Assembly (NCBI RefSeq): GCF_001017435.1
Contig: NZ_CP011371.1
Location: forward strand, 5,332,001 to 5,396,000
DNA: 64,000 nucleotides
Direction of reading: 5' to 3'
Source of the DNA: Caldimonas brevitalea
Lineage (GTDB): Bacteria > Pseudomonadota > Gammaproteobacteria > Burkholderiales > Burkholderiaceae_C
The notes beneath the pieces were generated by a model. It saw nothing but the letters and a program-made list of their open reading frames with translations. It ran no database searches and was not told the DNA's origin. A program made the translations under genes and the position numbers. Shown one piece after another: positions 47,122 to 55,106 of this stretch. The first letter of the stretch is position 1. Each line of letters starts with the position of its first letter.

Positions 47122-48132
47122 TTACTTACGCGTGAACACCTGGTCGAACACCCCGCCATCGGCAAAGTGCGTTTTCTGCGCCTTGCCCCAGCCGCCGAAC
47201 ACCTGGTCGACGGTGAACAGCGAGACCTTGGGGAACTGCGCCGCGTACTTCGCGGCGGCCTGGGCGTCGACCGGCCGGTAGTAGTTCTGGCCGGCGATGT
47301 CCTGGCCTTCCGGCGAATACAGGTACTCGACGTAGGCCTGCGCCGCCGCCCGGGTGCCCTTCTTGTCGACCACCTTGTCGACGACGGCGACGGGCGGCTC
47401 GGCCAGGATGCTCACCGACGGGGCGACGATGTCGAACTTCTCGGGCCCCAGTTCCTTCTTGGCCAGCAAGGCCTCGTTCTCCCAGGCCAGCAACACGTCG
47501 CCGATGCCGCGCTCCACGAAGGTGGTGGTGGCGCCGCGGGCGCCCGAGTCGAGCACCGGCACATTGGCCAGCAGCTTGCCCACGAACTCGCGCGCCTTGG
47601 CGTCCGAGCCGTATTTCTTCTGGGCGTAACCCCACGCGGCCAGGTAGTTCCAGCGGGCGCCGCCCGAGGTCTTCGGATTGGGCGTGATCACCTGCACGCC
47701 CGGCTTCACCAGGTCGTCCCAGTCCTTGATGCCCTTGGGATTGCCCTTGCGCACCAGGAACACGATGGTCGAGGTGTAGGGCGAGCTGTTGTGCTGCAAC
47801 CGCTTCTGCCAGTCACCCGGCAGCAGCTTGGCGCGCTCGCCGATCTCGTCGATGTCGTAGGCCAGCGCCAGTGTCACGACATCGGCGTCCAGGCCGTCGA
47901 TCACCGAGCGCGCCTGCTTGCCCGAGCCCCCGTGCGAGGTCTTCACGGTGACGTTGTCGCCCGTCTTGCCCTTCCAGTACTTGGCAAACGCCGGGTTGTA
48001 TTGCTGGTACAGCTCGCGCGTCGGGTCGTAGGACACGTTCAGCAAGGTGATGTCCTTCGCCAACGTCGCGGTGGCGCTCGCACCGAGGGCCAGCGCGGCC
48101 AGGCTCAGACGGATGAATCGGGAGGTGGTCAT
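47122..48132 (-). CDS. sbp: Sulfate-binding periplasmic protein Sbp
   Basis: 336 residues with signal peptide [20 protein letters not shown] and cleavage near TLAKD. Family segments: [61 protein letters not shown] and [18 protein letters not shown]. It captures sulfate (or thiosulfate) for CysTWA. The start is preceded by AAGGAAGC. A palindromic motif lies 97 nt upstream. Confidence 0.95.
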
Positions 48133-48927: not shown

Positions 48928-49146
48928 TCAGAGCGTGGCGATGGAGACCTCGGTGGACTTGACCAGCGCGATCACTTCCTTGCCCACCGTCAGGCCCAGC
49001 TCCTTCACGGAGCGGGTGGTGATGACGGACGTGACGATCAGGCCACTCGGGGTTTCGACGTCGATCTCCGACACCACCGGCCCTTCGATCACTTCCTTGA
49101 CCTTGCCACGGAACTGGTTGCGCACGTTGATCGCGGTGATGCTCAT
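48928..49146 (-). CDS. Molbindin-like TOBE domain protein
   Basis: 72 residues, a single TOBE domain (SITAINVRNQFRGKVKEV, then VVSEIDVETPSGLIVTSVI, and LGLTVGKEVIALVKSTEV), the pattern of Mop/molbindin proteins that store molybdate. It could also bind tungstate. Possibly relevant to MsrP or other molybdoenzymes in the cell. Located 30 nt upstream of the RBBP9-type hydrolase, on the same strand. AGGAGAAG precedes the ATG at 49146. Confidence 0.9.
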   Translation of the reverse strand: MSITAINVRNQFRGKVKEVIEGPVVSEIDVETPSGLIVTSVITTRSVKELGLTVGKEVIALVKSTEVSIATL

Positions 49147-49439
49147 GAAATCTTCTCCTGTGTAGCGGACGGGGGGGCTGGACGCCGCGGAGCCAGTCAG
49201 CCCGCAGCGCAAGAGCCGCAACGGTAGCCAAGCGCCGACGCTTTCCGAACGAACGAATTCGGCACAACACATGCAGAAAGCGCATGAGAAACACCGCAAG
49301 GCGCCGGCCGATACCACCGCTCACGCTGACGACTCTGGGCGCATATACAAAGCCGAAAACAAACGTTGGCGCCCCCGGGTCGGGACCTTAAGGTGGCCCC
49401 TCCTCCAACAGAGCCGCCTCCTTTGGGCCCCTGCCTGCC

Positions 49440-50588
<1,149 letters not shown>

Positions 50589-50922
50589 GGACGGGCGGCG
50601 AAAGCACCCCTCCCTGCTGTCACCGTCTTGCCTCACCACGGCGGCGGCCCGCACGGGTCGCGCCTTTCTCGTCCGCAGCAGCTGCGGCGCCGACCTTCGT
50701 GGCGGCGTGCCCGCCCCCACCCCGCTTCACCCTCCCCGAGATCCCCCGTATCCGGTGCACCGGACGGCTTGTGCTGCGCCGCAGACATCGCCTTGCACTG
50801 CCCTCTGCTACAGGCGCAAAACTCATAAGCTCATGCTGAAATCGCGCTTGACGAGGGAGACGAATCAATCGCAGTTGCGTTGCCCTTCGACAGTCCCCAA
50901 CCCGAGTTCCCAGGAGCCCCTT
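50589..50922. other. Intergenic region upstream of the Met/Cys-rich gene
   Basis: 334 bp with no gene I can support. GC-rich up to about 50810, then more mixed. It must hold the promoter of the Met/Cys-rich gene unless that is read from the activator gene; no strong -35/-10 pair is obvious. Confidence 0.45.
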
Positions 50923-51378
50923 ATGAAAGCGTCGATGCAAATGCCGATGAACGAGATGAACCCGATGGCCAGCATGCCGATGATGATGCCGATGGGCATG
51001 ATGAGCCCGATGATGAGCCACATGAGCTGCGAGATGACCGAGGAGGGTTTGAGCTGCACGATGACGCCGGTCGAAGGCATGTCGATGGAGATGATGCGCG
51101 ACTGCTGCGAGATGATGAACTCGATGGCCGAGCGTGGCATGCCTTGCACGATGAGCTGCAACGGCATGCCGATGATGATGGTGTGCGGCATGCCGGTGAT
51201 GCCGGAGATGCGCATGGAGATGACGGACGACGGCATGCGTTGCACGATGATGGCCAGCGACGGCATGCCGATGGAGATGATGTCGATGTGCTGCGACATG
51301 ATGACCCGCATGATGTCGTGCGGCATGTCGATGACGATGATGTGCGGCAGCATGCCCTTGATGGTCTGCACGCACTGA
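50923..51378 (+). CDS. Methionine/cysteine-rich protein, unknown family
   Basis: 151 residues, of which 54 are Met and 13 are Cys (44%). It is built from two related units, about residues 36-90 and 98-150; compare EGMSMEMMRDCCEMMNSM with DGMPMEMMSMCCDMMTRM. MxM, MxxM and CC/CxxM patterns run through the chain, which suits binding of copper(I) or silver, or a sulfur store. There is no signal peptide or membrane helix, so it appears cytoplasmic. AGGAG precedes the ATG at 50923 by 6 nt, and a strong double hairpin follows, so this is a real gene. I do not recognise a family. It lies among sulfur-acquisition genes. Confidence 0.85.
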   Translation: MKASMQMPMNEMNPMASMPMMMPMGMMSPMMSHMSCEMTEEGLSCTMTPVEGMSMEMMRDCCEMMNSMAERGMPCTMSCNGMPMMMVCGMPVMPEMRMEMTDDGMRCTMMASDGMPMEMMSMCCDMMTRMMSCGMSMTMMCGSMPLMVCTH

Positions 51379-51396
51379 ATCTCGTGCCTCCGACCG

Positions 51397-51419
51397 CGTG
51401 GCCGGCGCCGTCGGCCACG
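51397..51419 (+). terminator. First hairpin after the Met/Cys-rich gene
   Basis: CGTGGCCG and CGGCCACG pair perfectly over a 7-nt loop, 18 nt after the stop codon. No T-run follows, but the next hairpin lies only 4 nt further on. Confidence 0.6.
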
Positions 51420-51423
51420 TCGC

Positions 51424-51451
51424 AACGCCGGGCTTGCCGCCCGGCGTTTTT
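51424..51451 (+). terminator. Rho-independent terminator of the Met/Cys-rich gene
   Basis: AACGCCGGGC and GCCCGGCGTT pair perfectly around TTGCC and end in TTTTT, a good intrinsic terminator. Confidence 0.88.
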
Positions 51452-51511
51452 CATGGCGCGGCGGGTGTGATGTAGCCCGACCGCCTGCTCGACGTCGGAC
51501 CTGCCGGCCGG

Positions 51512-52234
51512 TCAGTCGCGCGACAGCGCGGCCAGCGGATGACGTGTTTGCGTCACCCAGAACGCCAGCACTTCGTCCGCCTGAAGGTTGCTGCAGCGCA
51601 CGCCGCCCGGCCCTTCAAATTGGACCGCTTCGCGCGGGCCCAGCAGGTGCACCGCCTCACCGACGGTAACCTCGAGTTCACCTTGCACCACCACCACGTT
51701 CAGGACCTGGGTCGCCTCCGCGTCGCCCAGCTCCACGCTCGCACCCGTGGCAAGGCGCAGCTCGTGGAACTCGGCGTGCAGGGGCCGGTGGTGTGCGAAC
51801 AAGGCCCGACGGTGGCCCGTGCCCCGCGCCAGCGGCCCCAAAGCCTCCGGGTCGACCGGGAGCACCAGGGCCTCCGGCTGGCGACGCGGCTGCAGGAACG
51901 ACGTCAGCGACACGTCGAGCGACGCGGCGATCAACCACAGCGTGCGCACGCTGGGCACGCTGCGGCCTTGCTCCAACTGGCCCAGCATCGCCCGTGAGAC
52001 GCCACTGGCACGCGCGAGACGCTCGAGCGACCAGCGCCGCTGACGCCGCAGCCGTTTGAGATGGTCGCCGACCAGCTGTGCCAGGCCGGCATCGGCGAGG
52101 TCGCGCGGGCCCAACCCCGGCGCTGTTTCGGAAGACGACGGCGACAGGCCGTCCGCGGACGTCACGCCTTGTTGTGCGGCCGCCGACACATCGGCCGGCC
52201 CGCTGCCGCCGCCCGGGTACGCTGGTTTGCGCAT
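51512..52234 (-). CDS. XRE-family regulator with cupin domain
   Basis: 240 residues. A low-complexity N-terminus of about 50 residues precedes a helix-turn-helix (about 58-110: WSLERLARASGVSRAMLGQLEQG) and a C-terminal cupin (about 150-225: VVQGELEVTVGEAVHLL). Same overall type as the regulator at 43263 but clearly a different protein. Target genes are not evident; the SsuA-like gene 446 bp away on the same strand is one candidate. The start could be later, because the first 45 residues look non-conserved. Confidence 0.8.
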   Translation of the reverse strand: MRKPAYPGGGSGPADVSAAAQQGVTSADGLSPSSSETAPGLGPRDLADAGLAQLVGDHLKRLRRQRRWSLERLARASGVSRAMLGQLEQGRSVPSVRTLWLIAASLDVSLTSFLQPRRQPEALVLPVDPEALGPLARGTGHRRALFAHHRPLHAEFHELRLATGASVELGDAEATQVLNVVVVQGELEVTVGEAVHLLGPREAVQFEGPGGVRCSNLQADEVLAFWVTQTRHPLAALSRD

Positions 52235-52679: not shown

Positions 52680-53813
52680 TCAGGCGCCTGCAACTCGGCC
52701 GTCGGCCTGGTAAACCGGCCAGTAGGTCTCCAGCCGCAGTTCCTTCAACGCCGCGCTGAGCGGACGGCTGTCGATCCAGCTGTCGACGTCGAATTTCGAG
52801 CGGATCAGCTTGAAACGTGCCGCCTGTTCGACCGCGTCCTTGTACCGGGCCACCAGGAACGGATCGAAGTTCGGGTTCAGTCTCACTCGCAGGGGCTCGC
52901 CAGCGTAGTCTTCCTTCCAGTGCTCGTAGGGGGTGCCGGCACGGGCCCACAGCCGCAGAACTTCTTCTCGGTGGGCCTCGTCGGACGCCCATCGTGCCGT
53001 CTTCACGGCCGCCTTGACCACTCGCGCCGTCGCCTCCGGGTAGCGCTGCGCGAAGGTGTCGGTCACCAGCACCGCGCTTTGCCGTGTGTACACCGGCGAC
53101 TGGCCCTTCGTGGTGTAGAGGATGCGGATACCGCCCTTGTCGCGCAGGCGCAGCAGGTCCTGCCCGCCGATGGCGGCGTCGACATCGTTGGTGCTCACCG
53201 CCGCGAGCGCGGACGCCGTGTCGAGGTTGACGAGGCGCAGGTCTTTTTCGCGCAAGCCGTGAGCCTCCAACAATCGCAGTGCCGGCAGATGGATGTTGGT
53301 GCCCTTGAACAGCGACACCCGCTGTCCCCGCAGATCGGCCAGCGTGCGCAGCGGCGAGCCCGACGGGACGGCCACGTAGAGGTTGGCCCGCACGCCGGTC
53401 GCCAGCACCAGCCGCGTCTTCAGCCCGCCGGCACGCCCGATGATGGACGGCAGGTCGCCCTGGAAGGCGAAATCGACCTGCTGGTTGGTGAGCGCCTCGT
53501 TGACGGCGGGGCCGGCGCCCTTGAACGAGTACCACTCGACCTTGATGCCGTCAGCCGCGAACTCCTGTTCGATCCACCCTTTGGCATGGGCGATCGCCAT
53601 CGAGCTGGCGGAAAACGACGGCGGGGTGCCGGTGAAGGCTTGCGCCACCGCGATGCGGATCGCGGCAGGCTGCTGTGCCGGTGCGCTGTGCGCCCGGCGT
53701 GCCGACCCCGCGGCCGCGAGCAAGGTGACGGCGCCGACGGTCTTGAGCAGGTGACGTCGGCCGTCGTCGAACTCATGGGGAGGTAGAGGTTGTTCTGTCG
53801 TGTCCATGCGCAT
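52680..53813 (-). CDS. SsuA/TauA-type sulfonate-binding periplasmic protein
   Basis: 377 residues. A twin-arginine-like signal (GRRHLLKTVGAVTLLAAAG) is followed by a type II periplasmic binding fold: IRIAVAQAFTGTP, DFAFQGDLPSIIG, VAVPSGSPLRTLADLRGQ and GGQDLLRLRDKGGIRILY. This is the aliphatic sulfonate/taurine-binding group. The gene is alone: no cognate permease or ATPase adjoins it, so it may use a transporter elsewhere, perhaps the one at the right edge. A good sigma-54 promoter match lies upstream at 53874-53889. The frame is open to 54455 but the start must lie at 53813 or 53807 to give the signal peptide. Confidence 0.82.
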   Translation of the reverse strand: MRMDTTEQPLPPHEFDDGRRHLLKTVGAVTLLAAAGSARRAHSAPAQQPAAIRIAVAQAFTGTPPSFSASSMAIAHAKGWIEQEFAADGIKVEWYSFKGAGPAVNEALTNQQVDFAFQGDLPSIIGRAGGLKTRLVLATGVRANLYVAVPSGSPLRTLADLRGQRVSLFKGTNIHLPALRLLEAHGLREKDLRLVNLDTASALAAVSTNDVDAAIGGQDLLRLRDKGGIRILYTTKGQSPVYTRQSAVLVTDTFAQRYPEATARVVKAAVKTARWASDEAHREEVLRLWARAGTPYEHWKEDYAGEPLRVRLNPNFDPFLVARYKDAVEQAARFKLIRSKFDVDSWIDSRPLSAALKELRLETYWPVYQADGRVAGA

Positions 53814-53873
53814 TGCCGTAGAGCGCGGCGTCCCGTCGAACCCCTTGGTTCGGCCTGCCGCGAGGGACCTCTT

Positions 53874-53889
53874 TGCAAGGCCTGTGCCG
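53874..53889 (-). promoter_or_regulatory. Sigma-54-type promoter of the SsuA-like gene
   Basis: Read on the minus strand, CGGCACAGGCCTTGCA matches the -24/-12 pattern TGGCACG-N4-TTGCA at all but two positions, with GG and GC 10 nt apart as required. The predicted start of transcription is about 50 nt before the SsuA-like start codon. Confidence 0.6.
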
Positions 53890-54036
53890 CTGACGGCCCC
53901 GTGCCACTGCAACGCGGCATAGGCCCCGCTGTTTCGAACCCAGCCCGGCTTGCTGCAGACCCAGCACCTCGGCACGCCCTGGCGGGTCCCCTGCGGAAAA
54001 GCCAGCAGCCACGACCGCCGCGAGCCCTTCTGGCGC

Positions 54037-54052
54037 TGGCATGTCCTTCGCA
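54037..54052 (+). promoter_or_regulatory. Possible sigma-54-type promoter of tauD
   Basis: TGGCATGTCCTTCGCA keeps the GG and GC at the 10-nt spacing of a -24/-12 promoter, with two mismatches to the consensus. It lies 44 nt before the tauD start codon. Weaker than the divergent site at 53874. Confidence 0.4.
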
Positions 54053-54095
54053 TCACGGCGGTCCCCACCCACTTCACCGCCCCACGGCTCCCGCC

Positions 54096-55106
54096 ATGAC
54101 CTACGACGCTGCAAGCTCCACCGCCGCCGCTCCCTCCCGCGAGACCCACACACCGCCCACCGCGCCGCACCTCGAGATCGTCCCCGTGGCCGGCCGCATC
54201 GGCGCCGAGATCCGCGGCATCCGCCTGGGAGCCGACCTCGACCCGACGACCCAGCACGCGATCCGGCAGGCGCTGTGGCGCCACAAGGTGCTGTTCTTCC
54301 GCCGCCAGCACCACCTCGACGACGCCCACCAGGAAGCCCTGACGGATGTGTTCGGCGGGGCGCCCGTGCCCCACCCCACCGTGCCGGTCAAGCCCGGCAG
54401 CCGGTACATCCTCGAACTCGATTCGCAGCACGGCGGGCGCGCCGACTCCTGGCACACCGACGTCACCTTCGAAGCGGCCTACCCCAAGGTGTCGATCCTG
54501 CGCGCCGTCACCGTCCCTGCCGCCGGCGGCGACACGACGTGGGCCAACACCGTGGCCGCCTACGAAGACCTCCCGGCGCCGCTACGCCAGCTCGCCGACA
54601 CCCTGTGGGCAGTGCACAGCAACGACTACGCCGCGCGGCGCCCACACGCCAGCGAGGCCGACCGCGAGCGGCACCGCACGGTGTTCGCGTCGACGGTGTA
54701 TGAGACCGAGCATCCGGTCGTGCAGGTGCACCCCGACAGCGGCGAGCGCGCGCTGATCCTCGGCCATTTCGTCAAGCAGTTCGTCGGCTTCAACCGCTTC
54801 GACAGCCAGCGCTTGTTCGAGATCTTTCAGGCCCACATCACCCGGCCCGAGAACACCGTGCGCTGGCGCTGGGCCGAAGGCGACGTGGCGGTCTGGGACA
54901 ACCGTGCGACCCAGCATTACGCGATCAACGACTACGGCGATCAACACCGGGTGGTGCGCCGCGTGACCGTCGACGGCGGCGTCGCCGTAGGCCTGGACGG
55001 CCGGCACAGCGTCACCCGCAGCAAGGTGACGCGCAGCAGCGACGTTGCCCTGGAGGGCGCTTCATCACGGCGAGCCGAGTCGACGACGGCCTCGCCCGTG
55101 GCGTGA
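54096..55106 (+). CDS. tauD: TauD/TfdA family alpha-ketoglutarate-dependent dioxygenase
   Basis: 336 residues. The iron ligands are the HxD pair H120/D122 in WHTDVTF and the distal H274 in TQHYAIND; the downstream Arg in HRVVRRVTV should bind alpha-ketoglutarate. Enzymes of this group cleave taurine or other sulfonates and sulfate esters, releasing sulfite or sulfate and an aldehyde; the actual substrate is open. N- and C-terminal extensions (about 25 and 35 residues) are low-complexity. Divergent from the SsuA-like binding protein, with which it probably works. Confidence 0.88.
   Translation: MTYDAASSTAAAPSRETHTPPTAPHLEIVPVAGRIGAEIRGIRLGADLDPTTQHAIRQALWRHKVLFFRRQHHLDDAHQEALTDVFGGAPVPHPTVPVKPGSRYILELDSQHGGRADSWHTDVTFEAAYPKVSILRAVTVPAAGGDTTWANTVAAYEDLPAPLRQLADTLWAVHSNDYAARRPHASEADRERHRTVFASTVYETEHPVVQVHPDSGERALILGHFVKQFVGFNRFDSQRLFEIFQAHITRPENTVRWRWAEGDVAVWDNRATQHYAINDYGDQHRVVRRVTVDGGVAVGLDGRHSVTRSKVTRSSDVALEGASSRRAESTTASPVA

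Follow-up and report, generated by a model that had tools for sequence, protein, structure and literature searches.

What does a bacterium gain from a protein in which nearly every second residue carries sulfur? The question is raised by a gene of Caldimonas brevitalea, which lies in a 64,000-nucleotide stretch of contig NZ_CP011371.1 (positions 5,332,001 to 5,396,000, forward strand; hereafter the window). The gene, at 50923-51378 on the plus strand of the window, translates to 151 residues, of which 54 are Met and 13 are Cys (67/151, 44%). It encodes a member of a new family of sulfur-dense proteins, which are predicted to fold and are accompanied by a regulator gene of their own. As the likeliest reading, we tentatively propose, at a probability of about 0.4, that the protein serves as a cytosolic store or buffer of Met and Cys, controlled by a repressor that would sense a sulfur metabolite.

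A two-unit protein dominated by methionine and cysteine

Our recount of Met and Cys agrees with the initial annotation of the locus. The remaining sequence contains no Ile, Phe, Trp or Tyr, and only two Leu and four Val. Among the 354 open reading frames (ORFs) of at least 60 residues in the window, with a median Met content of 1.6%, the frame ranks first in Met plus Cys. With this top rank and with homologues in several phyla, the gene is not a chance frame. It is organized as follows:

50912..50916, plus strand: ribosome-binding site AGGAG, 6 bases 5' of the ATG, read directly
50923..51378, plus strand: Met/Cys-rich protein gene, 151 residues, identified by translation, homologues and sense-strand selection in Pseudomonas relatives
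50923..51009, plus strand: Met-rich N-terminal tail (residues 1-29), which opens like the recurrent ..AMQMPMN and has low model confidence
51022..51177, plus strand: unit 1 (residues 34-85), predicted β-β-α-β plus a short helix, profile E 1.7e-21
51208..51363, plus strand: unit 2 (residues 96-147), predicted β-β-α-β-β, profile E 4.5e-11
51395..51452, plus strand: two hairpins and a TTTTT run, a probable terminator between convergent genes

The two similar units of about 55 residues described previously correspond to these two segments of 52 residues each. Both are matched by the family profile, which includes unit 1 of the window protein itself, so that unit 2 provides the independent match. 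The AGGAG site assigned in the initial annotation is present as well. Of the double hairpin terminator, the hairpins are borne out, as two strong ones follow the stop codon at about 51395-51422 and 51424-51448 (fold z -2.26), with the TTTTT run partly inside the stem of the second; however, a strict scan listed neither a terminator nor a sigma-70 promoter.

An unnamed family encoded on the methionine-rich strand

A first search retrieved six relatives. A profile search then gave 197 proteins with an E value of at most 0.01, 120 of them listed; composition statistics refer to 121 or 146 retrieved proteins. A search started from the least Met-rich branch gave 88 relatives. Among the matches listed in these searches, none carries a precomputed Pfam domain. 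The window protein matches no Pfam-A family even at E<=10 and no NCBIfam model, ten relatives gave five weak Pfam matches, all below cut-off, and eight proteins including that of the window had no match in NCBIfam. By sequence comparison, the protein is a member of a large unnamed family outside Pfam and NCBIfam, in line with the earlier failure to recognize any family. No paper describing the family was recognized in a literature search judged by titles or abstract starts.

The family extends over Pseudomonas, Burkholderiales, Myxococcota and Alphaproteobacteria, and among its source names are Pseudomonas tohonis, P. helleri, Polyangium, Sorangium, Pyxidicoccus, Kofleriaceae and Microvirga. 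They share a 52-residue pattern, M.CEM...GM.C.M.P..GM.M.M...CC..M..MM..GMP.M..C.GMPMM, present once or twice per protein, and the window protein fits it with two profile matches. Window-type and Pseudomonas-type members have two such domains; the myxobacterial and alphaproteobacterial members seen have one, usually behind a Met/Gly/Pro-rich tail. A start motif resembling MMNAMQMPMN is common to many members. The initial annotation had pointed to close relatives as a check on the frame: only one of eight other species of the genus has it, but it is conserved far outside the genus. A larger scan of the family to which the window organism belongs found the gene in two of 399 genomes, its own and one doubtful match; the latter, in G171 (26% identity, with a stop), is probably spurious, as is a second match in the profile scan, G487 (E 8.9e-4). 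The copy of Eleftheria terrae sits on a 737-kb plasmid, which is the single plasmid record (none was found with query P0006) and gives no case for spread by plasmids. A phage origin was rejected, as no relative was confirmed in the viral contigs scanned.

As ATG read backwards is CAT, the in-phase antisense frame stays open, and it does so in 81 of 82 members. The true gene could in principle be this His-rich antisense frame, or there could be no gene at all, with the Met-rich frame as an artefact; RefSeq indeed annotates the antisense frame in Eleftheria. The substitution pattern of 75 Pseudomonas-type genes leaves this alternative a negligible chance and refutes it for genes of that type. 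Distinct single-base variants comprise 129 synonymous and 143 nonsynonymous changes in the sense frame, a synonymous share of 3.88 times expectation; read in the antisense frame, they divide into 58 and 214, a share of 0.93 times expectation. At non-Met columns, 140 variants fall at codon position 3, compared to 41 and 37 at the other positions. By these counts, selection acts on the sense, Met-rich frame, which secures the reading strand.

For the copy of Eleftheria terrae, RefSeq lists an antisense “hypothetical protein” (WP_301260845.1; L099:7751-8335, minus strand, NZ_CP106953.1) and misses the Met-rich gene. Other genomes may share this wrong-strand call.

A predicted fold with a core of methionine and cysteine

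The composition of the first 121 proteins is 35.2% Met, 7.0% Cys, 0.0% Trp, 0.1% Tyr and 0.5% His, and over 146 proteins the median Met content is 37.5% with a minimum of 18.7%. No member of ordinary composition was found even from the least Met-rich branch, although the word-based search could miss one. Judged from these sequences, Met-richness is a trait of the whole family.

Alignment of 189 distinct domains to the profile revealed 13 columns with at least 70% Met. Among the 392 replacements in these columns, 68% are Leu, Val, Ile or Phe, and only 3.6% are charged residues or Asn, Gln or His. Such replacements are typical of a hydrophobic core, here occupied by Met. In the predicted fold, the side chains of Met and Cys take the positions that Leu, Ile, Val and Phe fill elsewhere. 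The AlphaFold2 model, computed with 50 sequences, comprises two β-β-α-β-type units with a mean predicted local distance difference test score (pLDDT) of 82.5, a disordered N-terminal tail and a weaker stretch at residues 81-90 (72). A model of the one-domain branch has an identical order of elements, with a pLDDT of 63.5. Structural similarity search against the PDB and viral fold libraries gave no match to the predicted fold at E<=0.001; the best VIA-align hit, to part of gyrase A (Z 5.0), is within the stated background.

Three Cys positions stand out in the 189 domains: column 12 (184/188), column 29 (163/188) and column 46 (161/183). In unit 2 of the 75 Pseudomonas-type loci, Cys occupies columns 3, 12, 29 and 46 in at least 62 of 63 distinct units. 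At column 29, unit 1 of this type has Ala in 53 of 54 distinct units, whereas the corresponding helix position of unit 2 is Cys in 62 of 63; from this difference the two Pseudomonas units seem to be specialized. Column 46 varies too: in the least Met-rich branch, most unit 1 sequences have Ser or Ala there.

A convergent XRE-cupin gene as the partner

Downstream of the gene and facing it lies a regulator gene:

51512..52234, minus strand: XRE-cupin regulator, the conserved partner (HTH_3 E 1.2e-13; Cupin_2 E 0.014, below cut-off)

We compared 80 loci kept from 187 confirmed genome matches, which comprise 74 from named Pseudomonas, one from a gamma proteobacterium and five others. With the regulators of the window and of locus L020 as queries, an XRE-cupin homologue was found downstream on the opposite strand in 77 of the 80, and within 400 bases in 70 of these. 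Two of the remaining loci, L033 and L050, end 165 and 243 bases past the stop codon. L070 is the sole locus that has downstream sequence and no XRE-cupin gene in it (9,985 bases). The convergent layout extends from the window and Eleftheria to Pseudomonas, Pyxidicoccus, Sorangium, and metagenome-assembled genomes (MAGs) from Myxococcaceae, Magnetospirillum and a further alphaproteobacterium. In 298 Pseudomonas genomes (the genus of L017), the domain occurs in 63, the regulator (E<=1e-50) in 67 and both in 62, and the regulator is present in five of the 235 genomes that lack the domain (Fisher's p 7e-57, ignoring relatedness). The single domain-only genome, G1019, has the domain 117 bases from a contig start, with the downstream side missing; the five regulator-only genomes comprise two distant matches (50 and 54% identity), two partial ones and one at a contig start. 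Altogether, the regulator is a near-obligatory partner gene. L070 may serve as a natural experiment on the function of the Met-rich protein in the absence of the regulator.

The Pseudomonas partner aligns with the Vibrio cholerae structure 1Y9Q across residues 60-240, covering both domains and including two histidines (E 9.5e-24). These cupin histidines are present in the Pseudomonas, myxobacterial and Magnetospirillum partners as well as in 1Y9Q. The window partner shares 34% identity with the Pseudomonas one. Trouillon et al. 2021 (PMC7901475) report D-methionine in the cupin pocket of 1Y9Q. Apart from PauR, the P. aeruginosa XRE-cupins that they studied repress locally: each has one or two targets close to its own gene, and for six of seven an adjacent gene is a target. 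The XRE and cupin domains of such a local-repressor unit are present in the Pseudomonas partner, and the window partner has a weak cupin match.

Footprinting revealed a conserved sigma-70-like promoter 5' of the Pseudomonas genes (CTTG, then TAGAAT). In the myxobacterial loci L004 and L083, CCTCCGTTGCCTCGGAGGAAA with an inverted repeat lies about 105-130 bases 5' of the Met-rich gene and is a candidate operator; the Magnetospirillum locus L011 has a stretch resembling this CCTCCGTTGCCTCGGAGGAAA.

Other kinds of gene pair or leader were also considered. The convergent orientation of the two genes, with hairpins in the gap, argues against attenuation of a downstream gene and makes an attenuator or leader peptide unlikely. 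A toxin-antitoxin pair, raised by the XRE gene, is likewise judged unlikely from the same layout. A riboswitch or structured leader was rejected, as only four sub-threshold Rfam matches fall in the window between 50500 and 52600; at gathering scores over six loci, Rfam gave one tRNA.

Sulfur genes around the pair

The surroundings of the pair in the window include the following genes:

47122..48132, minus strand: sulfate-binding protein of an ATP-binding cassette transporter (PRK10752, 548 bits, cut-off 288)
48928-49317, minus strand: small molybdate-binding (Mop/TOBE) protein, with the sulfate-binding protein on one side and the sigma-54 activator on the other
49440..50588, plus strand: sigma-54-dependent activator with a Fis-type helix-turn-helix (HTH), the upstream neighbour (ORF bounds)
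52680..54455, minus strand: ORF with an SsuA-like aliphatic-sulfonate-binding protein, true start internal (TIGR01728, E 3.8e-41, 141 bits, below the cut-off of 163.5)
53790..55106, plus strand: ORF with a TauD-family dioxygenase, true start internal (PF02668 over cut-off; PRK09553 below cut-off)

A sulfur neighbourhood recurs elsewhere. Within 10 kb, the 80 loci contain SsuA-like genes in 31, SsuC-like in 23, DmoA/NtaA-like in 14, MetZ-like in two, and CysK-like and TauD-like in one each. At least one of these six kinds is present in 41 of the 80 loci, in 28 distinct arrangements, with a flank shorter than 9 kb in 12 of the 80. From the genome-wide density of SsuA-family genes (387 matches over 21 Pseudomonas genomes, 134.5 Mb), an SsuA-like gene would be expected near 4.6 of the 80 loci, against the 31 observed. 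In the Magnetospirillum MAG, the pair is adjoined by cysK and a cystathionine-γ-synthase-like gene. TonB-dependent receptors also recur near the Pseudomonas pair, clusters c9 and c11 being present in 12 and 11 loci (L061:11075-13366, L038:3870-6392); one recurring receptor weakly resembles PqqU.

A possible sulfur store and its alternatives

We propose that the XRE-cupin protein represses the Met/Cys-rich gene and responds to Met or to a sulfur metabolite akin to it. Under ample sulfur, the gene would be freed from repression and the protein made, fixing 67 sulfur atoms per chain; when sulfur is short, synthesis would cease and proteolysis would give back Met and Cys for reuse. This direction follows an observation in Rhodococcus, where sulfate starvation limits Cys/Met-rich proteins according to PMC8557817, and a protein of this composition is therefore expected in sulfur surplus. 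A cytosolic location is inferred from the lack of a visible signal peptide, as judged by eye; no basic residue occurs in MMNAMQMPMN, with which the Pseudomonas members commonly start. The initial annotation had allowed that the protein keeps sulfur in reserve or reports Met/Cys supply and expected regulation by sulfur status, a suggestion that gains from the dedicated XRE-cupin gene, whose Pseudomonas version resembles 1Y9Q in both domains, and from the recurring sulfonate and organosulfur genes. The full account, a gene pair that banks sulfur in protein, with a Met-sensing XRE-cupin repressor, synthesis in surplus and degradation in shortage, is possible, and we hold it a little more loosely than the storage role itself.

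Several observations weigh against storage. The Cys at columns 12, 29 and 46 are more conserved than a pure store requires. No queried sulfur gene was found within 10 kb in 39 of the 80 loci, including all three myxobacterial loci (L004, L037, L083) and L076, and none is annotated within 8 kb of the Eleftheria plasmid copy. The sulfate-binding protein of the window has relatives in 0 of the 80 loci, and its TauD in one. The excess of SsuA-like genes is a rough figure, as the genomes are related and uncorrected for, and most queries came from these very neighbourhoods. The distribution is patchy, with the domain in 63 of 298 Pseudomonas genomes and, around the species of the window, in two of 60 genomes, its own and that of Eleftheria. 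Moreover, the window partner matches 1Y9Q over the HTH only, and the regulators of the window and Eleftheria (51512-52234; L002 649-1395) lack the cupin histidines, so that the sensed ligand or metal may differ in Burkholderiales partners. No operator common to both genes was found, with equal scores for same-locus, cross-locus and shuffled comparisons.

The conserved Cys are also the best argument for a cytosolic buffer of Cu(I)/Ag(I) or another soft metal, in which they and the surrounding Met thioethers, both being soft-metal ligands, would hold the metal. Copper(I)/silver(I) binding had been suggested in the initial annotation, and apart from these strongly conserved Cys it gains little here; we regard it as unlikely. 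The Cys triad is incomplete in unit 1, with Ala at column 29 in Pseudomonas and Ser or Ala at column 46 in the least Met-rich branch, and the Met columns accept Leu, Val and Ile, unlike fixed ligands. In none of eight comparable genomes does an HMA-domain gene share the contig at a distance of 10 kb or less (seven are drafts, whose other contigs have no known position), the XRE-cupin partner is no known copper regulator, and His is nearly absent from the family.

The same tolerance of the Met columns, which act as core positions, also counts against a sacrificial oxidant buffer whose Met and Cys would scavenge reactive oxygen or chlorine species and be re-reduced by methionine sulfoxide reductases, making the protein a cytosolic version of the periplasmic peptide MrpX. 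The extreme Met density and the established reversibility of Met oxidation suit this idea, yet there is no visible signal peptide, and MsrA (PF01625), the one reductase covered by the neighbour search, is not encoded on the same contig at 10 kb or less in any of the seven Pseudomonas genomes in which both genes could be placed, one copy being about 11 kb away; we consider it quite improbable. The near-perfect co-occurrence with one regulator and the convergent layout kept over several phyla could instead mean that the translation or level of the protein reports Met/Cys supply and acts on the XRE-cupin regulator. Such a signalling partner is more doubtful still, as a folded, conserved two-domain product exceeds the needs of a leader peptide.

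Relation to known systems and significance

The pair resembles the XRE-cupin local units of Pseudomonas (Trouillon et al. 2021, PMC7901475) in that a regulator lies beside one conserved gene, is co-inherited with it and is homologous to 1Y9Q. It differs from those units in its neighbour, here a Met/Cys-dense protein with no enzyme-like match. E. coli SutR (YdcN) is an XRE-family regulator of sulfur utilization, as stated in PMC11332829. It is alike in its broad regulator family and its sulfur context, and is set beside the partner by family only. We know of no Met-rich partner of SutR.

Extreme Met content in a small bacterial protein is also found in MrpX-type peptides. MrpX is an exported periplasmic peptide paired with the MsrP/YedY reductase; the present family, by contrast, has no visible signal peptide, has a predicted fold and has a different partner. 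The Met-rich seed storage proteins of plants (delta-zein, 2S albumin), which are eukaryotic and secretory, are alike in the proposed storage role, as a functional analogy only. Csp and other Met/Cys-rich copper proteins similarly gather many thiol and thioether groups in one small protein. However, Csp is a four-helix bundle lined with Cys, unlike the β-β-α-β-β arrangement predicted here, and in the compared genomes the present gene has no HMA-domain gene nearby. A methionine-rich azurin-like protein of P. putida is cited in PMC3056050.

The family suggests, even should its role be metal or redox buffering, that a confidently predicted fold is possible with few aliphatic and almost no aromatic residues when Met and Cys form the core. 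It further points to a blind spot of annotation, in that a gene of this kind can be placed on the wrong strand.

Bacteria have dedicated polymers in which carbon, nitrogen and phosphate are stored, but to our knowledge no dedicated bacterial protein store of sulfur amino acids is known. A literature search for such a store listed plant work among other papers and, judged by titles, none on a bacterial one. If the proposal is true, the protein would be the sulfur counterpart of the carbon, nitrogen and phosphate reserves of the cell, and many soil pseudomonads would carry a sulfur store together with a sensor for it. Overall, this family may be a bacterial way to bank sulfur.
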